In this document: positions 1,665 to 55,076 of the stretch, one piece after another
Numbering within the stretch: the stretch's first letter is position 1
Layout: each line of letters opens with the position of its first letter
NCBI GenBank assembly: GCA_017458125.1
Contig: JAFTGB010000004.1
Coordinates: 62,001-126,000, forward strand
Origin: Prevotella sp.
GTDB taxonomy: Bacteria > Bacteroidota > Bacteroidia > Bacteroidales > Bacteroidaceae
DNA: 64,000 bases
Reading direction: 5' to 3'
The notes under the pieces: model-generated
Databases searched by the model: none
The model's input: only the letters and a program-made list of their open reading frames with translations
Told to the model about the DNA's origin: nothing
Program-made: the position numbers and the translations under genes

Positions 1665-3212
1665 CTAAATTGACATCAGGTATTCTACGCTGTTCTTGGC
1701 CAGCTTCAGGACGTTGCCCTGGCAGGAGTTGTTCTTGGGCGAGGCACTGACGTCCTTCGAACCGTCCTCGTTTTTCATGGAGAACTCGCAGCCGCCGTTG
1801 CCGATGCAGAGCACCGTGCCGCAGCCCTCCTGGAAACCGTCAGGAGCACTGGGTGCGCCCTTGGCCTCCCACACGTTGAGCTGGCTGACCCATGCGGCCT
1901 GTGAGTCCCACGTGCCGAGGGGATAGATGCCGAACTGAGTGGTGACGGCATTGTAGCACTCCTCGGTGTTGTTGTCCAAGCCCGTCAGTGCTGAGGGGAT
2001 GTTGAAGAACAGGCAGTTGTGGTCTTCCGTCCAGCCCGGGCCCTTGAAGGCGATGGCGGCGAAGCACTGGTCGTTGAGCTTCTCGGTGGGAATGCCGGCA
2101 TAGATGGGGTGCGAGGAGAAGTCCTTGGTGAACGAGCCGGTGTTCAGGCAGACACCCATCTTCCATGTGTCAGGGTTCCAGCCGCCTTTGCCGCAGCCCA
2201 TGGCGTTGTCGACACCGCGCAACTGCGAGGTGGGCAGGCGGTTGATGGTGCCTATATAGGGCACGGCGTGCTGCCAGAGCAGCAGGTTGCCGCCGTTCTT
2301 GACGTACTGCTCGACGATGGGAGCGGCATTGCGTGCCACGTCGGAGAAGTTCCAGATGTCGTCGACGTTGCCCGTCTCCAGGTCGCGCAGCCAGAAGAGC
2401 ATGCGGTAGTCCTCGATGTCCTCGACGGTGCTGATGTTGCCAAAGTAGATGTAGTCGCCCTTGGGGTAGTTCTCGTGGAACCACAGCCAGGCCGAGGCTT
2501 CGTCGTCGTCGCCGTTGGCAATGAGCTCTTCGGGTGTGGCATACTCAGAGAGGAAAGCCGGAATCTTGCCGCCAATCTTGGTGTTGGCCTCAATGGGCAG
2601 TGCCTTGCCTTCAGCGTTCTGGGCAATGAGTGTGGCCTTCCAGCGCTCCTTCATCTGGACGCCCTTCAGCGTGTAGGAGGTGCCGTTGACGGTCTCGGTG
2701 ACAGTCCTGCTGCCGTCGCCGTTGACGAGGGTGAGCAGGTAGGAGGTGGCATTCTCTACGGCCGACCAGGTGATCTGCAGGTTGTGCTCGTCGTCAGAGA
2801 TGTCGACTTGCGTCATCTTCAGCTCTGCCGGCGACGAGGCGCCGCCACGGGTGTAGCTGGTCATGACGCCTTTGGAGGTGGCGTCGTCGTTGGCATACTT
2901 GAAAAGGAACTCGTAGAGCACGTTGGTCTCCAGGTTCTTCAGTGTGAACGAGTTGTTGGGGCAGGGGGTGAGGCCCTGTATCTGCGACCCGTTCTTAAAG
3001 ACGGCTACCTGCATGGTGGCACCGTTGTTGGCAGCAGGCCACGACAGGGTATAGTCGTAGTTGTTGGCACCGGTGGCGACACCGCTGATGGTCGTCACGT
3101 CAGGCGCAGCCAGTTTCATGGCACCCGAGCCGGGCAGGTCGTGGTCCTGGCAGGAAGCAAAGAGCAGCAGCCCCATCAGTGCCATACCTATTCTGTTATA
3201 TATATTATTCAT
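1665..3212 (-). CDS. surface glycan-binding lipoprotein, DUF4960 family
   Basis: 515 residues. A lipoprotein signal ends at Cys21 (LLLFASC). Two fibronectin-III-like modules follow (about 36-120 and 130-215). The C-terminal part (about 225-515), rich in aromatic residues, looks like DUF4960. In Bacteroides thetaiotaomicron the gene at this place in the levan locus (BT1761) is a DUF4960 levan-binding surface lipoprotein, and the order SusC-SusD-this gene is the same here. It probably holds fructan at the cell surface for the SusCD transporter. It lies 51 nt after susD, in the same operon. Binding specificity is inferred from context. Confidence 0.75.
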   Translation of the reverse strand: MNNIYNRIGMALMGLLLFASCQDHDLPGSGAMKLAAPDVTTISGVATGANNYDYTLSWPAANNGATMQVAVFKNGSQIQGLTPCPNNSFTLKNLETNVLYEFLFKYANDDATSKGVMTSYTRGGASSPAELKMTQVDISDDEHNLQITWSAVENATSYLLTLVNGDGSRTVTETVNGTSYTLKGVQMKERWKATLIAQNAEGKALPIEANTKIGGKIPAFLSEYATPEELIANGDDDEASAWLWFHENYPKGDYIYFGNISTVEDIEDYRMLFWLRDLETGNVDDIWNFSDVARNAAPIVEQYVKNGGNLLLWQHAVPYIGTINRLPTSQLRGVDNAMGCGKGGWNPDTWKMGVCLNTGSFTKDFSSHPIYAGIPTEKLNDQCFAAIAFKGPGWTEDHNCLFFNIPSALTGLDNNTEECYNAVTTQFGIYPLGTWDSQAAWVSQLNVWEAKGAPSAPDGFQEGCGTVLCIGNGGCEFSMKNEDGSKDVSASPKNNSCQGNVLKLAKNSVEYLMSI

Positions 3213-3222
3213 ATTGCTATAA

Positions 3223-3268
3223 TCTTTTAACTTTTAACCTTTAAACTTTTAACCTTTTAACCCTTAAT
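3223..3268. repeat. CTTTTAAC micro-repeat between susD and the binding-protein gene
   Basis: Five or so imperfect copies of CTTTTAAC/CTTTAAAC fill the gap and extend into the last codons of susD. It is one of many short-unit repeats in this window. Confidence 0.6.
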
Positions 3269-4979
3269 ACCCTCTGTTCTGGTGATACAATCCCTGGACG
3301 TAGTTCATCTGGTTGGAAGCAATGGGGAAGTATTCGTTCTTGCCAGGAGTGAAGAAGGCGTCCTTGTAGTAGAGACCATAGGTCTGGCCGTCGTACTCGT
3401 CGGTCTTCTCGGTCTCGAAGTACTTGTTGAGTGTAGTGCTGAGCAGTCCCCAGCGACGCAGGTCGAAGAAACGGTGTCCCTCCATGGCCAGTTCTACGCG
3501 GCGTTCCCAGCGCAGGGCCTTGCGGGCGTCGTCCTTGGTGGCGAAGTGGCCATAGAGACTGATTTCGCACTGGTTCTTGGCATACTTGATGAGTGAGGTG
3601 CTCGAGATGTCTCGTTTGGCGCGTTCGCGAATGGTATTGATAATCTGTAGGGCCTCGCCGTTGTAGTCGCCGCTCTCAATGAGGGCTTCGGCACGCATCA
3701 GCATGACGTCGGTGTAGCGCAGCACGTAGTCGTTCTGTCCGAAGGCTTGCCAGGGGTTGTCGTAGTCCTCGCCCTTCGAGCGCTGGGGCACCTCCTTCAT
3801 GGAGCAGTAATAACCGTAGGTGTTGGGCGTGCGGCTGTTGGCCTTGGTCAGTGTGAAGTTCTCCTCGTATTTATATGGATAGGTAGGCATGCCCACGGTG
3901 TGGAACAGGCGGGGATCGTACTTGTACTTGGAGTCGGCTCCGTTGACGACGATGGCGTTGTGGTCTTCGTCGAAGTTGTCCATTGGCAGGCCGTTCTTGG
4001 TCTTGAAGGCGTTGACCAGGTTCTGCGAGGGCTTGTGGAAGTCCCATCCGCACGACCAGATGCCCCATACGCCATTCAGCATGTTCGACCAGTTGGCGCG
4101 TCCGTAGAGCGTGCCGTCATCGGCCTTGTTGGAGTGCTGTACGGCAAAGATGCTCTCGCACGAGTTGGCATAGTCCTGCAGGAAGATGTGTCCGTAGGTG
4201 TCCAGATAGTCGTAGGGTGAGTTCTTCACCACTTCAGTGTACTCCAGTACCTTCTTTATCTTGGCCTGGTCTACGTGGCTGTAGCCTGTGGTAGCCTCAT
4301 AGCCGTCGCCGTAGGCCCAGTTCAGGTAGCACTTGGCCAGATAGGCTGCTGCAGCCACCTTGTGGGCGCGGCCGGTAGTGCCGGGGTCAGCCTCTTTCAG
4401 GTTCTCGTAGGCATACTGGAAGTCGTCGATGATGGTCTGCATAATCTGGTCGTGGCTGCTTTGTGGTGTAGCTTCAATGGTGGCATTGTCCATGCCTTCA
4501 GTGATGAAGGGTACTTCATACCACATCTGCTGCAGTTTGTAGTAGAAGTGGCCGCGCAGGAAGCGTGTCTCGGCTTTAAGCTGCTTGATGGCAGGCGTCT
4601 CCTCGACGTTCGTCATCGACTCAAGGGCGCGGTTGCAGCGCGAGATGGCACTGTAAAGCTGGTACCACAGCTCGTCGAACTCGCCGCGGTCGGGCTGCAG
4701 GGTGGAGAAAATCTCCATCGGGTGGTAGCCCGTGTCGTTCTCGCCGGAACCGCCCTTCAGGCAGTCGTCGGCACTCATGTCGCCGTAGGGCCACAGGTTA
4801 AACGGATAGCTGTACCAGTCGTCGCCCAGTTTGGCGTAGGCTGCTATGACCAGTTTCTCGGGGCTGGAGAATGCCGTCTCTTCGTCGAGCGTACCCTGGG
4901 GCTTCACGTCGTCCACGCTGCAGGATACTGCAAAGACTGACAGCAGCAATGTTGCTATATATATATTGATCTTTTTCAT
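3264..4979 (-). CDS. susD: SusD/RagB-family nutrient-binding lipoprotein
   Basis: 571 residues from the preferred ATG at 4979. An ATG 24 nt further upstream would add a non-signal extension before MKKINIY. The lipoprotein signal ends at Cys20 (FAVSC). The body shows the SusD pattern: an N-terminal TPR-like helical core (ETRFLRGHFYYKLQQMW), then the C-terminal RagB/SusD region (YVLRYTDVMLMRAEA; ALRWERRVELAMEGHRFFDLRRW). SusD caps the SusC barrel and delivers oligosaccharide to it. It is 48 nt after susC. The substrate is inferred to be fructan from the GH32, fructose permease and fructokinase nearby. Confidence 0.9.
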   Translation of the reverse strand: MKKINIYIATLLLSVFAVSCSVDDVKPQGTLDEETAFSSPEKLVIAAYAKLGDDWYSYPFNLWPYGDMSADDCLKGGSGENDTGYHPMEIFSTLQPDRGEFDELWYQLYSAISRCNRALESMTNVEETPAIKQLKAETRFLRGHFYYKLQQMWYEVPFITEGMDNATIEATPQSSHDQIMQTIIDDFQYAYENLKEADPGTTGRAHKVAAAAYLAKCYLNWAYGDGYEATTGYSHVDQAKIKKVLEYTEVVKNSPYDYLDTYGHIFLQDYANSCESIFAVQHSNKADDGTLYGRANWSNMLNGVWGIWSCGWDFHKPSQNLVNAFKTKNGLPMDNFDEDHNAIVVNGADSKYKYDPRLFHTVGMPTYPYKYEENFTLTKANSRTPNTYGYYCSMKEVPQRSKGEDYDNPWQAFGQNDYVLRYTDVMLMRAEALIESGDYNGEALQIINTIRERAKRDISSTSLIKYAKNQCEISLYGHFATKDDARKALRWERRVELAMEGHRFFDLRRWGLLSTTLNKYFETEKTDEYDGQTYGLYYKDAFFTPGKNEYFPIASNQMNYVQGLYHQNRGY

Positions 4980-4987
4980 TGTTCTTT

Positions 4988-5027
4988 CTTTTATATTATG
5001 CATTATGCATTATTAATTATGCATTAT
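4988..5027. repeat. ATGCATTAT micro-repeat between susC and susD
   Basis: Three copies of TTATGCATTA-like units fill the gap. The same ATGCATTAT motif recurs between GH32 and the MFS gene (11769-11797), so one repeat type marks two gaps in this locus. Confidence 0.6.
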
Positions 5028-8000
5028 TTAGAATCCTACTTGTATTCCAAAGGTAAAGGAAGCCGTGTGAGGATAGCTCCATGCAGTGCTCTCCGGGTCA
5101 GAGCAGGTCAGCGAGCTCGACTTGATGGTCCAGAGGTTGTCGCCCGAGAGGTAGACACGGGCCTTGGCCAGCAGCAGCTTCTTTACTAACTGAGCAGGCA
5201 GGGTGTAGCCCAGCTGGAGGGTGCGCAGCTTGGCATAGGAGCCGTTCTCCACGAAGTAGGACGACATGCGGCCTTCGTCGGCACCGTTCGAGGTGGTCAG
5301 TGCGGGAATGCTGGAGCCGTTGTTGGCCTGTGTCCAGGCGCTGACCACGCGCGCACCCTTGTTGCTTCCGGCGTCGGTGATGCTCCAGAAATCGGTCTGG
5401 AACTTCTGGTCGTTGATGATGTCGACACCCGACACGCCCTGCCAGAACATGGTGAAGTCGAAGCTCTTGTAGCTCAGGTTGACGTTCAGACCATACGAGA
5501 AGTTGGGCACCGGATTGTAGACCCAAGTACGGTCGGCCTCGTTGATGCGGCCGTCGCCGTTCAGGTCGGCATACTTCAGACCGCCCACGCGGGCACCGGC
5601 CTGACCGCCGGCCAGCACTTCCTCGCGCGACTGGTACAGTCCCTCGACCACGTAGCCGATGCGCGACCCGTAGGCCTTCTCGTCCTGAGCCAGGTTGTGG
5701 TAGTCGTTGTGCTCATAGGAGTTCTTGGAGTTCTCCGGCAGATAGGTCACCTTAGAGCGGAAGAAGTCGACGTTGCCGTTGATGTCGTACGACAGGCCGT
5801 AGGCCGTGGTGTGGCGGTAGCCCAGGTTGAGCTCCATACCCCAGTTCTTCAGCGTCGGACCGTTGATCCATGTCTGTCCGCCGAAGCCGATGGCTCCGAG
5901 GAATGCCGGTTGCACCAGCATGTCCTTGGTTTCCTTGAAGAAGACGTCGTAGGAACCGTAGAGGTCACCGCCGAAGAGCGAGAAGTCGGTACCGAAGTTC
6001 CACTGCGACGACGACTCCCACTTCAGGTCCTCATTGGCCGACTGCGACTTGTAATAGCCCGAAGGCAGCGTGCCCGAGCCCTGCAGGTTGACGTCGTAGG
6101 CCGTGGAGTTCTCGCGGCTTGAACCGTAGTCGGCCACGTAGAGTCCATAGTGGGCCGTGTTGGAGTTCATGCCCTGATTACCGGTGACACCGTAGCTGGC
6201 GCGGATTTTCCAGTCGCGCAGCCAGTCGGCATTGATGTGCTTGCTGATGCGGTAGCCTAATGACACCGAGGGGAAGGTACCGTACTGATGGTTCTTACCG
6301 AAACGGCTCGAACCGTCGTGGCGCAGCGTGAACGAGGCCAGCAGCTGGTCGTTCCAGTTGTAGTCCAGCTTGCCGAAGTACGACATCAGCTTGTATCCGT
6401 CACCGGAGCCGCGTACGGTCTGCAGGCCAGTGCCCGCACTGGGCCACATGTAGTCGACGGTCTCTAAGGGGTAGTCCACGCGGCGGGCGGCAAAGTCTAT
6501 GCCGTTGTCCTGATGGGTCTCCAGTCCGAGCAGCACGTTCAGGTTGTGACCCTCGGTTATGTCGAAGTTGTATTGCAGTGTGTTCGACCACGTCCACTTG
6601 GTGCTGTGCGTCTGAGCCAGCTCACTAGCGTTGGTGTCGTTGTTCACCACGTCTGAATGCCATGTGTGCGTCAGCGCGCGGATGTAGCCGTTGGTGTAGT
6701 CGATACCGAAGTTAGAACGGAACAGCATGCCCTTCACCAGCGTGACGTCAACGTATGCGTTGGCGAAGATGCGCCACTTCTTCAGGCGGTTGTCGCGGTT
6801 CTGGTACAGCTCGCGCATCGGGTTCTGGCGGTCGCTCATGCCACCGACGGGACCCGAGAAGGTCTTGCCGTCCTCTTCATAGACGGGCAGTGTGGGCGCC
6901 ATCTTCAGGGCGTTCTCTAAGGGTTCCGAGTTGACATTGCTCGAATACGCGAAGGTGGCGTTCTCGCCCACGCTGATGATGCTGTTCAGCTTGTAGCTGC
7001 TGTTGAAGCGGGCCGAGAAGTTCTCGAAGTCGGTGTACTTCAGCACACCGGTGGCCTTCTTGTAGCCAGCCGAGAACAGCGTGGTAGCCTTGTCGGTGGC
7101 TTTCGAGAACGCAATGTCGTAGTTCTGCGTGACACCTGTGCGTCCTATCTCGTCCACCCAGTCGGTGTCGCTATACAGCATGGTCTTTCTGGCATTCATG
7201 TAACCGTCGTAGTAGCCGCCTACAGAGAAAGACTCCATGCTTCCTGTTGCCGGGTTGTAGACTGTAATGGGCGTGCCACCGTCAGCCGTCAGCGTCAGGC
7301 CGTAGTTCTGGGCGTAGTCGTGCGGGTTCTTGCCGTCGTTCAGTGCTGCCTGCACTAAGGCAGTGGCGTACTGCTGGCTGTTGAGCAGCTTCATCTTCTG
7401 CGACTGCCAGGCCACTGACACTGAGGCATTGAAGTCGATGTTGATTTTGTCGCCCTTCTTGCCCTTCTTGGTGGTGATGACGATGACGCCGTTGGCAGCT
7501 CGTGAACCATAGATAGAGGCTGAGGCAGCGTCCTTCAGCACCTGCATCGACTCAATGTCGGCAGCGTTGATGCTGTTCAGCGAACCACTGTAGGGCATGC
7601 CGTCGACAATATACAGCGGTGCCGTGCTGGAACCGCCCATAGAGCCGATACCGCGAATGCGTACGTTGGCCTCGCCGGAGGGAGAGCCGTTCGACGTGAT
7701 GGTCATGCCTGGCACTTTACCCTGCAAGGAAGCCATAGGGTCGGTGTTGCTGGTCTTGAAGTCTTTGGTCTCCACTACGCCCACCGAGCCCGTCAGGTCG
7801 GCCTTGCGCTGTACCTGATAACCGGTGACCACCACCTCGCTCAGCGCCTGGGCGTCGTCTTCCATGGTGACCTTCATGCCCTGCTGGGCAGGCAACTCCA
7901 AGGTTTTGTAGCCGATGTAGGTGAACACCAGCGTCTTGCCTGGCTCCACTTTCAGCGTGAAGTTACCGTCGAAGTCGGTCACCGTTCCGTTGTTGGTGCC

Positions 8001-8135
8001 TTTCTCCATGACAGTAGCGCCGATGACCGGCCCCATGGCGTCGGACACCGTTCCAGTAATCTCCTGTTGCGCGTACATTAATGAACACGTCAACAAGGCG
8101 AAGAAACTGAGAATGAATCTTTTCGCTTGTTTCAT
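5028..8135 (-). CDS. susC: SusC/RagA-family TonB-linked outer-membrane transporter
   Basis: 1035 residues. The signal peptide ends at about residue 22 (MYAQQ). A carboxypeptidase-like regulatory domain follows (about 24-105, ITGTVSDAMGPVIGATV). Next is the TonB box/plug region (SEVVVTGYQ, then VRIRGIGSM and IYGSRAANGVIVITTKKG), and then a 22-strand barrel ending SFTFGIQVGF. Length and domain order are normal for the family. It imports oligosaccharides together with SusD using TonB energy. It is first in the operon with its own promoter (8189-8196) and a palindromic operator just upstream (8243-8288). A fructan substrate is inferred from the neighbours. Confidence 0.93.
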   Translation of the reverse strand: MKQAKRFILSFFALLTCSLMYAQQEITGTVSDAMGPVIGATVMEKGTNNGTVTDFDGNFTLKVEPGKTLVFTYIGYKTLELPAQQGMKVTMEDDAQALSEVVVTGYQVQRKADLTGSVGVVETKDFKTSNTDPMASLQGKVPGMTITSNGSPSGEANVRIRGIGSMGGSSTAPLYIVDGMPYSGSLNSINAADIESMQVLKDAASASIYGSRAANGVIVITTKKGKKGDKINIDFNASVSVAWQSQKMKLLNSQQYATALVQAALNDGKNPHDYAQNYGLTLTADGGTPITVYNPATGSMESFSVGGYYDGYMNARKTMLYSDTDWVDEIGRTGVTQNYDIAFSKATDKATTLFSAGYKKATGVLKYTDFENFSARFNSSYKLNSIISVGENATFAYSSNVNSEPLENALKMAPTLPVYEEDGKTFSGPVGGMSDRQNPMRELYQNRDNRLKKWRIFANAYVDVTLVKGMLFRSNFGIDYTNGYIRALTHTWHSDVVNNDTNASELAQTHSTKWTWSNTLQYNFDITEGHNLNVLLGLETHQDNGIDFAARRVDYPLETVDYMWPSAGTGLQTVRGSGDGYKLMSYFGKLDYNWNDQLLASFTLRHDGSSRFGKNHQYGTFPSVSLGYRISKHINADWLRDWKIRASYGVTGNQGMNSNTAHYGLYVADYGSSRENSTAYDVNLQGSGTLPSGYYKSQSANEDLKWESSSQWNFGTDFSLFGGDLYGSYDVFFKETKDMLVQPAFLGAIGFGGQTWINGPTLKNWGMELNLGYRHTTAYGLSYDINGNVDFFRSKVTYLPENSKNSYEHNDYHNLAQDEKAYGSRIGYVVEGLYQSREEVLAGGQAGARVGGLKYADLNGDGRINEADRTWVYNPVPNFSYGLNVNLSYKSFDFTMFWQGVSGVDIINDQKFQTDFWSITDAGSNKGARVVSAWTQANNGSSIPALTTSNGADEGRMSSYFVENGSYAKLRTLQLGYTLPAQLVKKLLLAKARVYLSGDNLWTIKSSSLTCSDPESTAWSYPHTASFTFGIQVGF

Positions 8136-8188: not shown

Positions 8189-8196
8189 CAAAAGTA
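8189..8196 (-). promoter_or_regulatory. susC -7 promoter element TACTTTTG
   Basis: TACTTTTG on the minus strand, 53 nt before the susC start. I see no good TTTG at the -33 position, which fits an activator-dependent promoter. Exactly 46 nt separate it from the operator at 8243-8288. Confidence 0.7.
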
Positions 8197-8242
8197 CGGT
8201 CTTTCGCACGCAAGGTATGGAAAACTTGTTTCAAGGGACAAA

Positions 8243-8288
8243 AAAAATCGTTCAATGCAACATTTTTGTTAAACATTGAACGATTTTT
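8243..8288. promoter_or_regulatory. palindromic operator upstream of susC
   Basis: A perfect 15-bp inverted repeat, AAAAATCGTTCAATG and CATTGAACGATTTTT, is separated by 16 nt. The first arm recurs base for base at 9938-9952 upstream of GH32, with the same arm spacing and the same 46-nt distance to the -7 box. It is a likely binding site for the AraC-type regulator encoded next to it (8312-9844). Confidence 0.75.
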
Positions 8289-8311
8289 CGCAGCCTGTCG
8301 CCCGTGGTAGC

Positions 8312-9844
8312 TTACGCTCTCAGATTGCCAGGCAACTGGCCGTACTCCTCTTTGAAACATTTGGTGAAGTAGGACGGAGCGGTGAAGCCAACCTTGTAGG
8401 CTACCTCGCTGATGCTCTTGTCGGTGGTCAGCAGCAGCTGGTAGGCTCGCTTCAGACGGGCCGTGCGCAGCAGTTCAACGGGCGTGGAGCCAGTGACGGC
8501 CTTCACCTTCCTATATAATTGTACGCGACTGAGGTGCATCTCGGTAGCCAGGTCTTCGATGCTGAGTTCGCTGTCTTCGAGGCGCGACTCTACAGCCTCC
8601 TTGAAACGGGCAATGAACAACGAGGCCGACGTTGCCGGCTCTTTCTCCTCGGTTTTCTCGTCTTCGTCTTCGTTTTCGTCATGGTTTTCGTTTTCGTCAT
8701 TTTCCGGCTTCATGTTCCACAGCGTGTTGACTACGCGTTCCCGGCGCAGCGTCATCTTACCTATGTGGTAACGGTAGAACAGAATGATGGCGATGACGAG
8801 CAGTGCTATGACGCCGAGCGCCAGCAGCGAGATGATGCGCTGGTTGTCCAACTGTTGCAGGTATGTGTCGGCTTTCTTGTGTAGACGGTCAAGGTTGTTG
8901 TTTTGCCGCATCATCTCCTCCGTCTGCATCAGCAGCACTTTGGCGTTGTCGCGTGTGACGATGGCCGACTGTAGCAGAACCTCCTTTTCAAAGGGCTTGC
9001 CGTCCAGTATGTCGACGGCCTGTTGTATCAGCCTGTCGCCATGCGTGGGGTAGATGTAGGAGGCCTCAAGGATGCTGTCGCGTACCAGTTGGATGCCGCC
9101 GCCCTCTCCCGGTAGTCCGTCAATGCCGCAGTATTTGGGGGACACATCGCTTAAAGCCTTGCGTGCCCCCATGGCCATACGGTCGTTCTGGCCGAAGACA
9201 AAGTCGATGCCCTTCGCTGCGGCTTGCTGTCCTTCGGCAGTAGCCAGCCATTGGGCCATGGCCTTTGTGCCGCTCTCCTCCGTCCAGTCGCCTTGCAGCG
9301 TAGCTACCAGTTCTATGTTCGGGTGTTGTGCCAAGGCGTCGGCGAAGCCGTTATGTCGCTCGATGGCGGGCGAAGAGCCCTTCAGTCCCTTCACTTCTAC
9401 TACGCGTCCGTGGCCTTTCAGCTGTTTGGCGATGTACTCTCCCATCTGCCGCCCCATCTCGTAGTTGTCGGCCGACATGAAAGAGGTGTACTTCTGTGAG
9501 TTGGTTTTACGCTCGAAGACGATGACGGGTATGCCGCTGTCGTAGGCCCGGTCAATGGCGGGCGATATGGTCTGCACCTGGTTGGGGGCAACGATGAGCA
9601 GGTCGATGCCTGTGGCCAACAGGCTGTCTATTTGTTGGATTTGTCGCTCGTCGCTGTCGTAGGCTGCAGCAAAACGCAACTCCACACCGTCGTTGAAGTA
9701 GGTTCCCATGCGCAGTTCTGCGTTTTGCTTCTCACGCCAGATGTCGGCTGAGCACTGGGAGACGCCGATGACGTAGCGTGGCTGCTTAGGGCTACATCCG
9801 AAACAAAGCAGCAGAAGTGCGGTTGCCAGACAAATTTTTTGCAT
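8312..9844 (-). CDS. membrane-spanning sugar sensor with AraC DNA-binding domain (kinase-less HTCS-like regulator)
   Basis: 510 residues. An N-terminal hydrophobic segment (1-17) leads to a LacI/RbsB-type periplasmic sugar-binding domain (about 23-310; YVIGVSQCSADIWR, GIDLLIVAPNQ, DFVFGQNDRMAMGA). Then come a short coiled segment (about 315-336), one membrane helix (about 338-358), a basic stretch, a very acidic linker (381-402, Glu/Asp/Asn) and an AraC helix-turn-helix pair (about 405-510, ending SYFTKCFKEEYGQLP). In the B. theta fructan locus the regulator BT1754 has the same sensor and AraC ends, but a histidine kinase and receiver lie between them. Both are absent here. The cytoplasmic part is too short to hide them. 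It probably senses fructose and activates susC and GH32 directly. It has its own promoter (9897-9904). Confidence 0.85.
   Translation of the reverse strand: MQKICLATALLLLCFGCSPKQPRYVIGVSQCSADIWREKQNAELRMGTYFNDGVELRFAAAYDSDERQIQQIDSLLATGIDLLIVAPNQVQTISPAIDRAYDSGIPVIVFERKTNSQKYTSFMSADNYEMGRQMGEYIAKQLKGHGRVVEVKGLKGSSPAIERHNGFADALAQHPNIELVATLQGDWTEESGTKAMAQWLATAEGQQAAAKGIDFVFGQNDRMAMGARKALSDVSPKYCGIDGLPGEGGGIQLVRDSILEASYIYPTHGDRLIQQAVDILDGKPFEKEVLLQSAIVTRDNAKVLLMQTEEMMRQNNNLDRLHKKADTYLQQLDNQRIISLLALGVIALLVIAIILFYRYHIGKMTLRRERVVNTLWNMKPENDENENHDENEDEDEKTEEKEPATSASLFIARFKEAVESRLEDSELSIEDLATEMHLSRVQLYRKVKAVTGSTPVELLRTARLKRAYQLLLTTDKSISEVAYKVGFTAPSYFTKCFKEEYGQLPGNLRA
8640..8706. repeat. GAAAACGAAGAC micro-repeat encoding the acidic linker
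   Basis: Short GAAAAC/GAAGAC/GATGAC units on the minus strand encode the Glu/Asp/Asn linker of the regulator. Similar units encode NENEDENEN in the GH78 protein (42905-42930), so the linker may derive from a repeat insertion. Confidence 0.5.
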
Positions 9845-9896
9845 CAGTGATTCTTTATGATTTTCGATTTACGTTTTCGTTTTTGTCTTCTGACTG

Positions 9897-9904
9897 CAAA
9901 GGTA
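9897..9904 (-). promoter_or_regulatory. regulator -7 promoter element TACCTTTG
   Basis: TACCTTTG on the minus strand has TTTG at 9924-9927, 19 nt upstream, which is a complete -33/-7 pair. The operator at 9938-9983 starts about 10 nt beyond the -33 box, so autoregulation is possible. Confidence 0.65.
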
Positions 9905-9937
9905 ACGTTTTTCTTTTAACCAACAAAAAAAGGTCGC

Positions 9938-9983
9938 AAAAATCGTTCAATGGTTAGAAAAAACGATAAGTTGAACGTTTTTT
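9938..9983. promoter_or_regulatory. palindromic operator between regulator and GH32
   Basis: The left arm AAAAATCGTTCAATG is identical to the susC operator arm. After 16 nt, the right arm AGTTGAACGTTTTTT matches the susC right arm at 12 of 15 positions. Exactly 46 nt separate it from the GH32 -7 box. It lies in a divergent gap and could control both directions. Confidence 0.75.
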
Positions 9984-10029
9984 GTTATGTTTTGTATCAA
10001 ATATTATAGTATAAGCATCCTTTTTTCCT

Positions 10030-10037
10030 TATCTTTG
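10030..10037 (+). promoter_or_regulatory. GH32 -7 promoter element TATCTTTG
   Basis: TATCTTTG lies 32 nt before the GH32 ATG. There is no clear -33 TTTG, as for susC, consistent with dependence on a bound activator. Confidence 0.7.
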
Positions 10038-10069: not shown

Positions 10070-11758
10070 ATGAAAAAAATCCTATTGGTAATGATGACCA
10101 TGGTGCTGACGCTCACCGGAGCTTTGGCACAACAGAAGTTGCAGGTGTTGGGTAAGAGCCGTGCCATGCAGCGCGTAGTAGTGACGAACAAGTACCTGTT
10201 GTTGCCCGTTCAGGAGCGCGAGGACAATGCTAACATCCGCATCCTGAAGGACGGCCAGCAGGTGAAGTCGCTGAATGTACGCCTTGCCGTCGACCAGGTG
10301 GACTACTATGTTCCGCTAAACCTCACGCAGTTCACTACGACTAATTCGCAACTCCTGCTCGACATCACGTTCTATGGCGACCGCCGCTTTACGGGGGCCA
10401 TGAAAGACTTCCTCTGCTGGAAGGAGATGAAGCAGAGCGACACCTTTGACACCAAGAACCGCGAGAAGTACCGTCCGCAGTACCACCACACTCCTGTGTA
10501 CGGCTGGATGAACGACCCCAACGGCATGTTCTACAAGGATGGCGTCTACCACCTGTACTACCAATGGAACCCTTACGGCTCCATGTGGGAGAATATGACG
10601 TGGGGCCACTCTACGTCGCGCGACCTCATCCACTGGGAGGCGCAGCCGACGGCTATCGAGCCAGATGCCTTAGGCGACATCTTCAGTGGTTCGTGCGTGG
10701 TGGACAAAGAGAACGACCGCGTTGTAGCTTTCTACACCTCGGCAGGCAAGAGCCAGACACAGTCGATGGCTGTTTCCAAAGATAACGGGCAGACCTTCGA
10801 GAAGTACAGCGGCAACCCCGTGCTGGTGAGCACCGAAGAGGACTTCCGTGACCCCAAGGCCTTCTGGAACCCTGAGATACAGCGTTGGAATCTCATCCTG
10901 GCTGTTGGTCAGGAGATGCGCATCTACTCGTCGGCCGACCTGAAGGAGTGGAAGTACGAGAGCTCTTTCGGCAAGGAGCTGGGCTGCCACGACGGAGTCT
11001 GGGAGTGCCCTGACCTGATGAAGCTGCAGGTGCGCGGCACCGATAAGCAGAAGTGGCTGCTCATCTGCAACATCAATCCTGGCGGACCCTTCGGCGGCAG
11101 TGCCACCCAGTATTTCGTCGGCACCTTCGACGGCCACCACTTCAATTGCGAACATAAGGACACACGCTGGATGGACTATGGCAAGGATCACTATGCCACC
11201 GTCACCTTCGACAACGCCCCCGACGGTCGAAAGATTGCCCTGGCTTGGATGTCGAACTGGCAGTATGCCAACCAGGTGCCCACCAAGCAGTTCCGCAGTG
11301 CCAACTCGCTGCCCCGTGACCTTGACCTGTACGAGTACGAAGGCCAGACCTATTGCGGTGTGACACCGTCACGCGAGGTCAACGCCCTGCGTGGCAAAGT
11401 GGTGAAGAAGCTGCCCAAAACCTGTGAGATTGTGGTCGACGTCAAGGGTACGACGGAAGTAACCCTGTCCAACAAGCTCGGCGAACAGGTGCTCATGAAG
11501 TATGACGTTGCCAAGAAGACGTTCTCCATGGACCGTACCCGCAGCTACGCCAGCTTCAGCGAGGCCTTCCCCTGTGTGACCACTGCTCCCGTCTATGGTG
11601 ACATCCGCCAGCTGCGCATCTTCATCGACAACAGCAGCATTGAAGTCTTCGACGCCGAAGGACGCCTGTCAATGACTAACCTCATCTTCCCCACCGAGCC
11701 CTATAATAATATAAAGGTGGCAGGCGGACGTGCCACGATCTATGAGATTAAAAATTAA
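10070..11758 (+). CDS. GH32 fructan beta-fructosidase
   Basis: 562 residues with a signal peptide ending at about residue 20 (GALAQQ). An extra N-terminal beta domain (about 22-130) precedes the five-blade GH32 propeller. The three catalytic motifs are intact: WMNDPNG with nucleophile Asp149, FRDPK with Asp261, and WECPDL with acid/base Glu312. A C-terminal beta-sandwich carries the usual SSIEVFD stretch. It hydrolyses beta-fructosidic bonds of levan or inulin-type fructans to release fructose, in the periplasm or at the surface. It heads a plus-strand operon with a permease and fructokinase. Exo versus endo action and linkage preference cannot be told from sequence alone. Confidence 0.92.
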   Translation: MKKILLVMMTMVLTLTGALAQQKLQVLGKSRAMQRVVVTNKYLLLPVQEREDNANIRILKDGQQVKSLNVRLAVDQVDYYVPLNLTQFTTTNSQLLLDITFYGDRRFTGAMKDFLCWKEMKQSDTFDTKNREKYRPQYHHTPVYGWMNDPNGMFYKDGVYHLYYQWNPYGSMWENMTWGHSTSRDLIHWEAQPTAIEPDALGDIFSGSCVVDKENDRVVAFYTSAGKSQTQSMAVSKDNGQTFEKYSGNPVLVSTEEDFRDPKAFWNPEIQRWNLILAVGQEMRIYSSADLKEWKYESSFGKELGCHDGVWECPDLMKLQVRGTDKQKWLLICNINPGGPFGGSATQYFVGTFDGHHFNCEHKDTRWMDYGKDHYATVTFDNAPDGRKIALAWMSNWQYANQVPTKQFRSANSLPRDLDLYEYEGQTYCGVTPSREVNALRGKVVKKLPKTCEIVVDVKGTTEVTLSNKLGEQVLMKYDVAKKTFSMDRTRSYASFSEAFPCVTTAPVYGDIRQLRIFIDNSSIEVFDAEGRLSMTNLIFPTEPYNNIKVAGGRATIYEIKN

Positions 11759-11803: not shown

Positions 11804-12961
11804 ATGAATAAGAACAAGTCCATCTACCTCATCCCCGTTATGCTCTGCTTCTTCTGCATGGGCTTCGTGGACCTTGTGGGCATAGCTTCCAACTATGTCA
11901 AGGAAGACCTCGCGCTGAGCGACTCTGTTGCCAACATATTCCCCTCGTTGGTGTTCTTCTGGTTCCTCATCTTCTCCGTCCCCACGGGCATGCTGATGAA
12001 CAAGATTGGCCGAAAGAAGACCGTGCTGCTCTCGCTCCTTGTCACCGTCGTCTCGCTGTTCATCCCGCTGTTGGGCTACTCCTTCGGCATCATGCTGGTG
12101 GCCTTCTCGCTGTTGGGCATCGGCAACGCGCTGATGCAGACCAGCATCAACCCGCTGGCCATGCTCATCATTGGCGACAAAAACTTGGCGTCGACGCTGA
12201 CCTTCGGGCAGTTTGTCAAGGCCATAGCCTCCTTCATGGCTCCCTACTTGGCCATGTGGGGTGCCACGCAGGTCATGCCATCTTTCGGCTACGATTGGCG
12301 CGTGCTGTTCCTCGTCTACTTTGTTGTCGGCGTACTGGCCACGGGCCTGCTGTGGGCAACTCCCATTCATGAGGAGATGACCGAGGGCAAGTCGTCGTCG
12401 TTCATGGACTGTCTGCGCCTGTTGGGAAAGCCCATTGTGCTACTGTCGTTCCTGGCCATCATGTGTCATGTGGGTATTGACGTCGGCACTAACACCACGG
12501 CACCCAAACTGCTGATGGAACGCGTGGGCATGACGCTCAACGAGGCCGCCTTCGCCACCTCGCTCTACTTCATCTTCCGCACCATCGGTGCGCTGACGGG
12601 CTCGTTCTTCCTGCGCGTCATGAAGACCCGCTGGTTCTTCATCGTCAGTGTTGTGCTCATGGCCCTGTCCATGGTCGGCATGTTCTTCGGCACCGAGCAG
12701 TGGGAATTGTATGCGGCCATCGCGCTGGTGGGCTACGGCAACTCCAACGTTTTCTCCATGGCTTTCTCGGAAGCGCTGCTCTCTGTCCCCGACAAGCAGA
12801 ACGAGGTCAGTGGTCTGATGATTATGGGACTCTTTGGCGGCACTGTGTTCCCCCTCATCATGGGACTGTGCAGCGATGCCGTCGGTCAGGCTGGTGCCGT
12901 GGCCGTCATGGCAGTTGGTGTCGTCTACCTGTTCACGTTCATCAAGCAAGTAAATCATTAA
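11804..12961 (+). CDS. MFS sugar permease (FucP/GluP-like), probable fructose importer
   Basis: 385 residues with about 12 membrane helices (first at 10-30, VMLCFFCMGFVDLVG) and an MFS signature loop after helix 2 (NKIGRKK). The family is the FucP/glucose-galactose porter branch. In B. theta the gene in the same place (BT1758) is a fructose permease. It should carry fructose across the inner membrane. It lies 45 nt after GH32 and 49 nt before fructokinase, with no promoter in between, so the three are probably one transcript. Confidence 0.85.
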   Translation: MNKNKSIYLIPVMLCFFCMGFVDLVGIASNYVKEDLALSDSVANIFPSLVFFWFLIFSVPTGMLMNKIGRKKTVLLSLLVTVVSLFIPLLGYSFGIMLVAFSLLGIGNALMQTSINPLAMLIIGDKNLASTLTFGQFVKAIASFMAPYLAMWGATQVMPSFGYDWRVLFLVYFVVGVLATGLLWATPIHEEMTEGKSSSFMDCLRLLGKPIVLLSFLAIMCHVGIDVGTNTTAPKLLMERVGMTLNEAAFATSLYFIFRTIGALTGSFFLRVMKTRWFFIVSVVLMALSMVGMFFGTEQWELYAAIALVGYGNSNVFSMAFSEALLSVPDKQNEVSGLMIMGLFGGTVFPLIMGLCSDAVGQAGAVAVMAVGVVYLFTFIKQVNH

Positions 12962-13010: not shown

Positions 13011-13886
13011 ATGAAGGATTTGATTATCGGACTGGGCGAGGCATTGTGGGACATGCTGCCCGAAGGAAAGAAACTGGGTGGCGCACCGGCAAACTTTGCC
13101 TATCATGCCGGACAGTTCGGCCTGAACACCATGGCCATCAGTGCCTTAGGCGAGGACAAGCTGGCCGACGAGACCATTGAAGCCTTGGAGAAGAACGGAC
13201 TGAATTACCTGATGCCGCGCGTGCCTTACGCTACGGGTACGGTGTTAGTGACGCTGACGGGCGACGGCATCCCTACGTATGAAATCAAGGAGAACGTGGC
13301 ATGGGATAACATACCTTTCACTGCCGAGGTGGAGGAAGCTGCCCGCAACTGCCGCGCTGTCTGCTTCGGGTCACTGGCCCAGCGCAACGTGGTAAGCCGG
13401 CAGACCATCCAGAAGTTCCTGGAAGCCACACCCGCTGACTGCCTGAAAATCTGCGACATCAACCTGCGTCAGCAGTTCTACAGCAAGGAAGTGCTGGAGG
13501 AGTCGTTCCGTCGCTGCAACATCCTGAAGATTAACGACGAGGAGCTGGTGGTCGTCAGCCGCATGTTCGGCTATCAGGAACTCGACGATGCCAAGGTCTG
13601 CCAGCAGATGGTCAAGGACTACAATCTGCAGTTGTTAGTGCTCACCTGCGGCACCAACGGTTCCTACGTGTTCACAGCCGATGGCGACCAGTCGTTCCAG
13701 CCTACGCCGAAGGTGGAGGTTGCCGACACGGTGGGTGCCGGCGACTCGTTCACCGGTTCGTTCTGTGCCGCCGTGCTCAACGGCAAGCCCGTCGCCGAAG
13801 CTCACCGCATTGCCGTCGAGGTGTCTGCCTACGTGTGTACGCAGAACGGTGCCATGCCTAAATATCCTGCCGAGCTTTTTAAATGA
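13011..13886 (+). CDS. fructokinase, PfkB family
   Basis: 291 residues, normal for a PfkB fructokinase. The N-terminal substrate motif (GEALWDMLPEGKKLGGAPANFA) and the C-terminal ATP/catalytic signature (DTVGAGDSFTGSF, whose Asp is the catalytic base) are both present. It is cytoplasmic and phosphorylates fructose from ATP to feed glycolysis. It is the last gene of the GH32-permease-kinase operon and is followed by a repeat-built hairpin. Confidence 0.92.
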   Translation: MKDLIIGLGEALWDMLPEGKKLGGAPANFAYHAGQFGLNTMAISALGEDKLADETIEALEKNGLNYLMPRVPYATGTVLVTLTGDGIPTYEIKENVAWDNIPFTAEVEEAARNCRAVCFGSLAQRNVVSRQTIQKFLEATPADCLKICDINLRQQFYSKEVLEESFRRCNILKINDEELVVVSRMFGYQELDDAKVCQQMVKDYNLQLLVLTCGTNGSYVFTADGDQSFQPTPKVEVADTVGAGDSFTGSFCAAVLNGKPVAEAHRIAVEVSAYVCTQNGAMPKYPAELFK

Positions 13887-14015: not shown

Positions 14016-15968
14016 ATGAACGTCACACAGTCAGCTATTCAGATGCTCCAGCAGCAGCGTTTGCTGCTCCAGTTAGAGTATGAGACCGAGAGGGAGGCCT
14101 ACCGCCAGCAGACCGAGACCATCGGTATTGGGCGCAAGGTGAAGCGCGGCGATGCCTGGTGGCCGCTGCGTTTCTCGAAGAGCTACTACAACTCGTTGAA
14201 CCAGCTGGCTGTGGAAGTGGTGCGCACCGCCGACACCGACATCGAACACAACTTCGAGTTCGGGCGGCCGGTGGCTTTTTTTGTGTGCGACGGCGAGGGG
14301 GGCAACATCCGCTACTTCCGCTTTACCGGCACTGTCAGCTACGTCGACGGCGACCGCATGGTGGTCACCGTGCCCGACCGTGCACCCCTTGCTGACCTGC
14401 AAGGGTCGGCAAATGTCGGCGTGCAGCTGTCGTTCGACGAGACCAGCTACCGGCTGATGTTGGAGGCCCTGGACCGCGTTATTCGCGGCAAGGGGCGCCT
14501 GGGCTACTTGCGCGACCTGTTCAGCACGCCGGCCATGAAGCCCGAGACGTTCACCTTCCAGCCTATGCACTTCCCCTACCTGAACACCACGCAGGAGCAG
14601 GCCGTCAACGAAGTGCTGCGCGCCAAGGATGTGGCCGTCGTGCACGGTCCTCCGGGCACGGGCAAGACGACAACGCTGGTGGAGGCCATTCGCGAGACGC
14701 TGATGCGCGAGAGTCAGGTGATGGTGTGTGCCCAGAGCAATATGGCTGTCGACTGGATTAGCGAGAAGCTGGTGGACCGTGGCATCAACGTGCTGCGGTT
14801 GGGCAACCCCACGCGTGTCAACGACAAGATGCTGTCGTTCACCTACGAGCGACGCTTTGAGGCGCACCCCGACTATCCGCAGTTGTGGGCGTTGCGCAAG
14901 GCCATCCGCGAGCTGCGCGCTCACCGCGGCCGCAGTTCCTCCGACGCCTGGCACCAGAAACTGGAGCACCTGAAGAGCCGTGCCACGGAGCTGGAGATAC
15001 GCATCAATGCCGAACTGTTCGGTGAGGCGCGCGTCATTGCGTCAACCCTTGTGGGAGCCGCTAACCGGCTGTTGGACGGACAGCGCTTCGGCACGCTGTT
15101 CATCGACGAGGCCGCCCAGGCCTTGGAGCCCGCCTGCTGGATACCCCTGCGCCGGGTCAGCCGTGTGGTGCTGGCCGGCGACCACTGCCAGCTGCCGCCG
15201 ACGGTCAAAAGCATTGCCGCCCTGAAGGCCGGATTGGGGCGCACGCTCATGGAGCGCATTGCGGAGACGCACCCCGAGGCGGTCACCCTGCTGAGGGTGC
15301 AGTACCGCATGAACGATGACATCATGCGTTTCTCCAGCAACTACTTCTACCATGGACTGGTGCAGAGTGCCCCCGAAGTCAGGTTCCGCGGCATTCTGGA
15401 CCTTGACACGCCCATGCAGTGGATTGACACGGGGAGCTTGCTGAAAGAGGAGTTCGTGGGCGAGAGCTACGGGCGCATCAACAAGGCCGAGGCCGAGCTG
15501 ACGCTGCAGGAGCTGCAACACTACTTTGAACGCATAGGCAAGCAGCGCCTGCTGGACGAGCGCATCGACGTGGGCATCATCTCGCCCTACCGCGCACAGG
15601 TGCAGCTGCTGCGCCGTATGCTGCTGAAACAAGCCTACTTCAAACCTTTCCGGCGGCTGATTAGCGTCAACACCGTCGACGGTTTCCAGGGACAGGAGCG
15701 CGACGTCATCGTCATCTCCCTCGTGCGCTCCAACGACGAGGGACAGATTGGTTTCCTGCGCGACCTGCGCCGCATGAACGTGGCCATCACGAGGGCCCGC
15801 ATGAAGGTCATCATCCTTGGCGACCGCCGCACGCTGACGAGCCACCCTTTCTACCGGCAGCTTTGGAAATACATTACTCAACTAAAACATAACGACGATG
15901 AAGACACTACTGATGATGGTGCTGACAACCGTGCTGATGACGACGAAAGCCATGGCACAGCAGTTTAA
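14016..15968 (+). CDS. superfamily 1B DNA2/SMUBP2-like helicase
   Basis: 650 residues from ATG 14016. The frame stays open upstream, but those codons are low-complexity repeat (FFIFYFLFFISYFLF) lying before the promoter. Walker A is GPPGTGKTTTL, Walker B is DEAAQALEP. Later helicase motifs include LRVQYRMNDDIM, NTVDGFQGQERDVIVISLVRS and NVAITRARMKV. It is an ATP-dependent 5'-3' DNA or RNA helicase of the AAA_11/AAA_12 type. The last 24 residues, very acidic, are read through the signal-peptide codons of the pullulanase in another frame (71-nt overlap) and look non-native. Confidence 0.88.
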   Translation: MNVTQSAIQMLQQQRLLLQLEYETEREAYRQQTETIGIGRKVKRGDAWWPLRFSKSYYNSLNQLAVEVVRTADTDIEHNFEFGRPVAFFVCDGEGGNIRYFRFTGTVSYVDGDRMVVTVPDRAPLADLQGSANVGVQLSFDETSYRLMLEALDRVIRGKGRLGYLRDLFSTPAMKPETFTFQPMHFPYLNTTQEQAVNEVLRAKDVAVVHGPPGTGKTTTLVEAIRETLMRESQVMVCAQSNMAVDWISEKLVDRGINVLRLGNPTRVNDKMLSFTYERRFEAHPDYPQLWALRKAIRELRAHRGRSSSDAWHQKLEHLKSRATELEIRINAELFGEARVIASTLVGAANRLLDGQRFGTLFIDEAAQALEPACWIPLRRVSRVVLAGDHCQLPPTVKSIAALKAGLGRTLMERIAETHPEAVTLLRVQYRMNDDIMRFSSNYFYHGLVQSAPEVRFRGILDLDTPMQWIDTGSLLKEEFVGESYGRINKAEAELTLQELQHYFERIGKQRLLDERIDVGIISPYRAQVQLLRRMLLKQAYFKPFRRLISVNTVDGFQGQERDVIVISLVRSNDEGQIGFLRDLRRMNVAITRARMKVIILGDRRTLTSHPFYRQLWKYITQLKHNDDEDTTDDGADNRADDDESHGTAV

Positions 15969-41000: not shown

Positions 41001-41074
41001 GAAAAGTGTGCCAACGGCAGGCACACAGTGTGCCTGCGCTGGGCACACTGTGTGCCCACCGTTGGCACACTTTC
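41001..41074. repeat. REP-like palindrome GTGTGCCAACG, copy 1
   Basis: Ends AAAAGTGTGCCAACGG and CCGTTGGCACACTTT are inverted, and the inside holds GGCACACAGTGTGCC and GGCACACTGTGTGCC palindromes. A close relative with the same ends and size lies at 55003-55076. Confidence 0.85.
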
Positions 41075-55002: not shown

Positions 55003-55076
55003 AAAAAGTGTGCCAACGCTGGGCACACTGTGTGCCTGCCGCTGGCACACTGTGTGCCTACCGTTGGCACACTTTT
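55003..55076. repeat. REP-like palindrome GTGTGCCAACG, copy 2
   Basis: AAAAAGTGTGCCAACG and CGTTGGCACACTTTT form the ends, with two internal GGCACACTGTGTGCC-type palindromes. Same ends and length as 41001-41074. It lies 24 nt after the waaA stop and may serve as its terminator (stem then TTTT). Confidence 0.85.

Follow-up and report, generated by a model that had tools for sequence, protein, structure and literature searches.

Introduction

At the araBAD promoter of E. coli, AraC occupies a strong and a weak direct half-site (araI1-I2), two turns apart and beside the polymerase. Membrane one-component regulators such as ToxR and CadC combine, within a single protein, a periplasmic part, one membrane helix and a cytoplasmic DNA-binding domain. 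The usual picture is that two-component systems grew from one-component ones. According to the accessible parts of the published work, hybrid two-component systems (HTCS) such as BT1754 possess kinase and receiver domains (PMC3404733, PMC3878776), and the operators predicted for HTCS consist of direct repeats with a mean distance of 21 bp (PMC3878776). Here we analysed a regulator gene (8312-9844) and two palindromic sequences at the promoters of the neighbouring susC and GH32 genes in a stretch of 64,000 nucleotides of Prevotella sp. (assembly GCA_017458125.1, contig JAFTGB010000004.1, positions 62,001 to 126,000 of the forward strand), which is called the window hereafter.

We consider, with a probability of roughly 0.8, that this regulator, acting by the mechanism proposed below, has two three-part operators, whose distal two thirds are the sequences at 8243-8288 and 9938-9983.

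Operator structure and promoter register

The original prediction, made from the window alone, had described two palindromes of identical geometry, and this description was borne out. The 15-mer AAAAATCGTTCAATG was found at 8243-8257 before susC and at 9938-9952 before GH32. At susC its exact reverse complement followed after a 16-nt spacer (8274-8288), and the GH32 partner, 16 nt after the 15-mer, matched at 12 of 15 positions (9969-9983). At both promoters 46 nt separated the arm from the -7 box (TACTTTTG and TATCTTTG, respectively; Table 1). The lack of a good -33 box at these two promoters, with no TTTG at 18-21 nt, was also confirmed, as was the presence of one at the regulator promoter (TTTG-N19-TACCTTTG). 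With at most three mismatches the 15-mer matched seven places in the window, when compared with a mean of 1.06 and a maximum of 5 in 100 shuffled sequences. Four of the seven were the arms themselves, and three belonged to an octamer array within a GH13 gene.

Conservation of the arms in related loci had been set beforehand as a check, and the arms proved to be conserved. We searched 110 loci, namely that of the window and 109 fetched around relatives of the regulator, for TCGTTCA followed by TGAACGA with 0-80 nt between them, from -60 to +700 nt around the regulator stop codon. This search by cores replaced repeat finding in the gap alone, which ranked unrelated hairpins first at some loci (e.g. 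L033, L073 and L105). The exact pair was detected in 88 of the 110 loci. The distinct pairs had spacings of 21 (2 sites), 22 (21), 42 (6), 43 (36) and 70 nt (1), and no others. They form a short and a long class that differ by two helical turns (21 bp), and in both a less common form has one base less. The proximal core ended 51 nt from the -7 box in 25 of the 26 distinct short-class sites (one was without a box), and 30 nt from it in 45 of the 50 long-class sites, three of which had a second -7 box at 18 nt; the remaining long-class sites were one at 31 nt, one at 51 nt and three without a box. Because the strong partner stands at 51 nt in the short class and at 30 nt in the long class, the start of the distal core is constant, 86-87 nt upstream of the -7 box. 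Its strong partner takes one of two positions two helical turns apart. The 46 nt once proposed as a general activation distance therefore did not hold, since in the long class the -7 box is 30 nt, and not 51, away from the strong proximal core.

When the sites were aligned on the -7 box, the second of these two positions was not empty. Both promoters of the window contain a third conserved element, missed in the original prediction, 21 bp past the core of the second arm. The three half-sites are termed D, M and P (Table 1). A strict scan for D, a strong M or P, and TAnnTTTG in register, with at most one mismatch in total, was applied to both strands of 200 loci (1,755,944 bases) and gave 138 matches in 127 loci, with none in the reversed sequences. 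After sites with 90% or more identity over 125 nt had been removed, 102 distinct sites were left, 39 of them with a strong M, 59 with a strong P and 4 with both strong. As one strong copy is built into the scan, the independent finding is the weakness, and the position, of the other copy. Among the M-strong sites, 38 of 39 had a 7-mer resembling TGAAACA (at most two mismatches) precisely at -37, and among the P-strong sites 56 of 59 had one precisely at -58; over all offsets the median was 0. Only one of M and P was TGAACGA-like in 98 of the 102 distinct sites and the other was usually TGNAACA, with the roles swapping between sites. This comparison demonstrated a predicted operator composed of an inverted D and the direct repeats M and P, 21 bp apart, with a constant register relative to the -7 box.

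The perfect repeat of D and M at susC and the 46 nt common to both promoters would also suit a two-part operator, in which a dimer on D and M, 46 nt before the -7 box, brings about activation and P is incidental. This is unlikely, as the P-like 7-mer keeps its exact position in the M-strong sites and as the strong partner in the long class is P and the weak one M; the known HTCS motifs, direct repeats averaging 21 bp in the accessible part of PMC3878776, likewise fit M-P. Two arms as the sole explanation were ruled out by the third element. The earlier assignment of the palindromes to the regulator is thus well supported by the comparison, whereas its model of two arms at one distance has to give way to three half-sites.

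In locus L074, all three half-sites of the natural operator downstream of the regulator were strong, with cores at 12, 40 and 61 nt as counted from the stop codon. Sensor-AraC relatives of approximately 38-46% identity were also seen beside susC genes in L129, L131, L133, L135, L136 and L137, with seemingly related sites composed of TTTCATGTAACA or TTTCATGTATCA and then GAACGA.

In the own genome of the window (3.37 Mb, 88% complete), TCGTTCA-N21/22-TGAACG occurred only at susC and GH32, and the same pattern read backwards had no match. The long form was found nowhere in this genome, and its backwards control had one match. Near-perfect palindromes in two neighbouring intergenic gaps might also reflect a mobile or repetitive element, of the repetitive extragenic palindromic (REP) or miniature inverted-repeat transposable element (MITE) type, that landed in both. 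The occurrence at two places only and the promoter register kept across many genomes speak against such an origin, which is scarcely conceivable and was rejected on the two copies in the genome.

Among the 102 operator promoters, TTTG was present 18-21 nt before the -7 box in one, and 17-22 nt before it in three. In the regulator upstream regions, TTTG-N18-21-TAnnTTTG was found in 25 of 107 and TAnnTTTG at all in 73, a rough contrast as these regions are longer than the operator promoters. The missing -33 box fits putative activator-dependent promoters. A sigma-70 promoter scan gave 1 match against 1.2 expected and was not used. Eight of the 11 distinct GH32 upstream regions (L001, L041, L047, L053, L056, L057, L069 and L151) contained D, M and a P-like TGTATCA or TGCATCA; the operator of L047 was read from the printed sequence only, and its -7 box is off pattern. 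Four of these loci (L041, L053, L056 and L069) each had one long-class, P-strong site together with the short-class GH32 site, the GH32 cores of the last three having one mismatch each. One regulator can therefore plausibly read both registers.

The susC repeat begins 23 nt after the stop codon of the regulator gene, and its sense RNA folds with -22.9 kcal/mol (z -6.4), followed by a U-run. This fold was equalled or surpassed in three long-class sites (-23.0 to -33.0 kcal/mol, z -5.3 to -8.1), and one other short site also folds well (-16.4, z -6.2). The susC copy might accordingly act chiefly as an intrinsic terminator for the regulator gene, or as terminator and operator at once, a possibility that we hold only tentatively. 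The GH32 copy (z -3.1), however, has divergent promoters on either side and no gene whose transcript it could end, and a terminator leaves both the third element and the fixed 51/30-nt register to the next -7 box unexplained. Nor was the susC hairpin listed by a simple terminator scan, which allows loops of 3-8 only. Termination as the only function of the susC copy is extremely unlikely, and as the sole explanation it was ruled out by the GH32 copy and the fixed register; double use perhaps keeps the tentative weight given above.

The centre of the long class, ATGTTACATTGCAACAT, resembles the palindrome wwwTATGTTnTAnAACATAwww given in the accessible parts of PMC6989115 and PMC3878776. The palindromes might then be sites of another regulator such as the Crp-like Cur/BT4338, with the gene for the periplasmic binding protein (PBP)-AraC fusion as a bystander. 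The spacing of ATGTT-AACAT is, however, 7 or 6 nt, against 4 in that palindrome, and the right half is missing from the short class in the window. The core motif was found at only two promoters of its own genome, unlike that of a global regulator, and it goes with this regulator across the loci, all of which were fetched via the regulator, with no test of absence elsewhere. A Crp-like Cur/BT4338 site (TATGTTnTAnAACATA) was not found by comparison by eye with the consensus, as far as the sources give it, the centre spacing being wrong. Assignment to another regulator is very unlikely.

Regulator architecture and proposed mechanism

Pfam matches assigned residues 58-283 of the 510-aa regulator to Peripla_BP_4 (E 5.1e-44) and its C-terminal residues 432-509 to HTH_18 (E 5e-22), and no match to HisKA, HATPase_c or Response_reg was detected in the protein. 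Among the NCBIfam matches listed, all were far under the curated cut-offs. The structure model (mean predicted local distance difference test (pLDDT) score 87.7, predicted template modelling (pTM) score 0.64) contained the sensor fold and, in helices at 404-508, the AraC DNA-binding domain with two HTH units. In this model there is no room for a kinase between the predicted membrane helix and the AraC domain. The sequence identifies the regulator as a predicted transmembrane sensor-AraC protein carrying neither kinase nor receiver. The best solved relative of the sensor was 2x7x (residues 21-338, E 4.6e-76), which we take to be the fructose sensor of BT1754. This relation and the gene context suggest that the sensor binds fructose. 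Residue 17 (9794-9796) is a Cys in a lipobox-like place and was invariant in 26 of 26 aligned sensor-AraC regulators, which suggests a lipid anchor besides the membrane helix.

Most likely, the regulator is a phosphorylation-free activator acting beside the missing -33 box, and its AraC domains would read the direct half-sites M and P. Binding of fructose would close the periplasmic domain, and the change would travel along the continuous membrane helix, by which the tethered AraC domains would be brought onto M and P. As P adjoins the position where a -33 box would be, the AraC domain bound there would replace the missing contact by touching the polymerase from P. In the resting state D and the strong copy would hold a dimer between them, or D would strengthen binding. 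One weak copy would keep the promoter dependent on the inducer, as the weak I2 half-site does at araBAD.

Designs and descent of the regulator

The 200 loci, some of which overlap in the counts, contained 208 regulator frames. These were 141 complete sensor-AraC proteins, 34 full HTCS, 27 complete ATPase-less proteins that keep HisKA and receiver, and 6 partial or sensor-only frames. Absence of HATPase was checked by Pfam in three of the ATPase-less proteins and, for the rest, by a profile built on four kinases of relatives. The HisKA histidine and the receiver Asp and Lys were kept in all 24 ATPase-less proteins aligned (including those of L119, L121 and L122), and the gap between HisKA and receiver was 28-52 residues in these 24, when compared to approximately 197-228 in full HTCS.

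Trees were built on the sensor and the AraC domain, with the middle omitted (167 rows). In the first tree the design changed at least 13 times and the register class of the downstream site at least 7 times. The second tree (IQ-TREE) comprised 86 of the 167 rows, the long rows L205 and L202 being left out. It placed the regulator of the window in a group of 26 sensor-AraC and 22 ATPase-less rows with no HTCS (Shimodaira-Hasegawa-like approximate likelihood ratio test (SH-aLRT) 95). Within this group the sensor-AraC rows were nested among ATPase-less ones, with an inner-group support of 92 in the second tree and 98 in the first. A single clade of all sensor-AraC rows was rejected by the approximately unbiased (AU) test (p-AU 1.8e-51), as was one of ATPase-less rows (p 0.00013), for groups set by domain content and tested after the tree had been seen.

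The direction of change depends on rooting with the full HTCS of other genera, which in the first tree did not form one side of a branch. With this rooting, the trees read as repeated loss, first of the ATPase and then of HisKA and receiver. The ATPase-less rows L158 and L161 (and L143 in the first tree) lay inside the sensor-AraC group, indicating several losses or a regain. The sensor-AraC rows L132, L206 and L160 adjoin full HTCS with no ATPase-less neighbour; the stepwise path is thus not shown everywhere. We lean slightly towards the view that fructan HTCS of the Prevotella lineage were repeatedly stripped down to a phosphorylation-free one-component membrane activator that still relies on the three-part operator of its ancestors. 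In that case the phosphorelay would not be needed, and the choice of the weak half-site would encode the on-off setting.

The strict scan detected the operator in 106 of the 138 loci having only sensor-AraC proteins. Several observations weigh against a three-part operator read by this regulator. The operator was detected in lower shares of the other loci, namely 11 of 28 with ATPase-less proteins and 8 of 32 with full HTCS (and 2 of 2 mixed ones). None of the 13 full-HTCS loci from other genera passed the strict scan, with L197 near in a relaxed scan, so that the shared operator belongs, on the loci covered here, to the Prevotella lineage; a fetched stretch may not contain every target promoter. 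The exact pair of cores was not found in 22 of the 110 loci in the region searched, nor a recognisable operator in the GH32 upstream regions of L102, L120 and L159 (3 of 11). Peaks of TGAAACA-like 7-mers also appeared at some non-operator offsets, the highest being in 18 of 39 and 33 of 59 sites at +6 and in 32 of 59 at -66. The third element was not found, at two or fewer mismatches, in 3 of the 59 P-strong sites and 1 of the 39 M-strong sites. The weak copy is not indispensable, because 4 of the 102 sites have both copies strong and some have no third element. In the short class, P is conserved mainly in the 7-mer and the bases after it, a pattern by which another factor or the polymerase itself could read P.

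Locus and neighbouring features

By its content (SusC, SusD, DUF4960, GH32, MFS permease and PfkB; Table 1) the locus appears to be a fructan locus. The MFS permease gene is probably on one transcript with GH32, and the PfkB-type kinase is a probable fructokinase. Relatives of the regulator (E <= 1e-60) were detected in 101 of the 150 same-genus genomes searched and in 90 of 199 genomes sampled from the family. The named set was the best 80 of 511 confirmed relatives, and it comprised 69 titled Prevotella or Prevotellaceae and 11 titled Bacteroidales or Bacteroidaceae, many of the titles naming ruminant forestomachs. The G-handle set and the named set of loci overlap, so some species were counted twice. 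The two switches probably serve the use of plant fructan in a rumen-type bacterium.

Table 1. Positions of the operators, promoters, genes and predicted regulator segments within the window
Feature	Positions	Strand	Basis
susC inverted repeat, 15-bp arms, 16-nt spacer	8243..8288		repeat search
GH32 inverted repeat, 12/15	9938..9983		repeat search
susC half-site D, TCGTTCA, starts 87 nt before -7 box	8277..8283	-	
susC half-site M, TGAACGA, strong form, 51 nt from -7 box	8248..8254	-	
susC half-site P, TGAAACA, weak form, 30 nt from -7 box	8227..8233	-	
susC -7 box TACTTTTG, no -33 TTTG	8189..8196	-	
GH32 half-site D, TCGTTCA, starts 87 nt before -7 box	9943..9949	+	
GH32 half-site M, TGAACGT, 51 nt from -7 box	9972..9978	+	
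GH32 half-site P, TGTATCA, 30 nt from -7 box	9993..9999	+	
GH32 -7 box TATCTTTG, no -33 TTTG	10030..10037	+	
Regulator's own -7 box TACCTTTG	9897..9904	-	
Regulator's own -33 box TTTG, 19-nt spacer	9924..9927	-	
DUF4960 protein	1665..3212	-	domain annotation
SusD-type protein	3264..5003	-	domain annotation
SusC-type TonB-dependent transporter, target promoter 1	5028..8135	-	domain annotation
Regulator, 510 aa, sensor-AraC	8312..9844	-	
Regulator membrane segment, ~aa 337-358, inside predicted 76-residue helix aa 301-376	8771..8836	-	
Regulator low-confidence acidic linker aa 378-402, membrane helix to AraC domain	8639..8713	-	
GH32 fructan hydrolase, target promoter 2	10070..11758	+	domain annotation
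MFS permease	11804..12961	+	
PfkB-type sugar kinase	13011..13886	+	

The GH13 gene (15898-18075) contains 24-bp repeats and octamer arrays at 16768-16862, 17411-17463 and 17481-17565, the latter two of which look mutually inverted. Intergenic triplets of a 22-bp palindrome of the GTGTGCCAACGGTAGGCACAC type, flanked by AAAA and TTTT, were located at 41006-41071 and 55008-55073. This palindrome had 17 matches in the own genome (at most one mismatch) and none for the backwards pattern, as a dispersed repeat family.

Discussion

The analysis provides a sequence-level operator for a Prevotella-type fructan locus, with a fixed promoter register, and links a single operator with regulators of three designs (full HTCS, ATPase-less and kinase-less), a natural deletion series. 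The series bears on the need for the phosphorelay in HTCS and on activation by a tethered AraC domain without a -33 box. If the proposal is true, the phosphorelay of HTCS-type carbohydrate control is dispensable, and the operator sets on and off by which tandem half-site stays weak. The tree rooted on full HTCS also reads opposite to the usual picture, from two-component to one-component. Neither a kinase-less or ATPase-less fructan HTCS nor this operator was recognised in the literature searched, subscription papers, preprints and supplements lying outside the search. The parts are of known kinds; what was not recognised in that literature is their combination, a kinase-less sensor-AraC protein with a three-part swap operator common with its HTCS relatives.

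BT1754/HTCS_Fru of Bacteroides thetaiotaomicron resembles the regulator of the window in its fructan locus, its periplasmic sensor of the COG1879 type and its AraC-type output. BT1754 has, however, kinase and receiver domains in the accessible accounts, and the window regulator matches neither. The M/P direct repeats 21 bp apart are like the HTCS operators, as far as PMC3878776 was accessible. The window operator differs from those by the extra inverted D and by the swap of strong and weak M/P, as the accessible part of PMC3878776 describes direct repeats only.

The strong and weak direct half-sites two turns apart near the polymerase are shared with araI1-I2. Unlike at araBAD, the window regulator is predicted to be membrane-tethered, a third, inverted half-site lies one step upstream, no distant loop is known, and the strong and weak half-sites can change places. 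ToxR and CadC share the layout of periplasmic part, helix and DNA-binding domain with the window regulator, although the domain order is opposite and the families are unrelated. In contrast to them, the window regulator would place a sugar-binding domain outside and an AraC domain inside, and by the trees it appears to be derived from HTCS.

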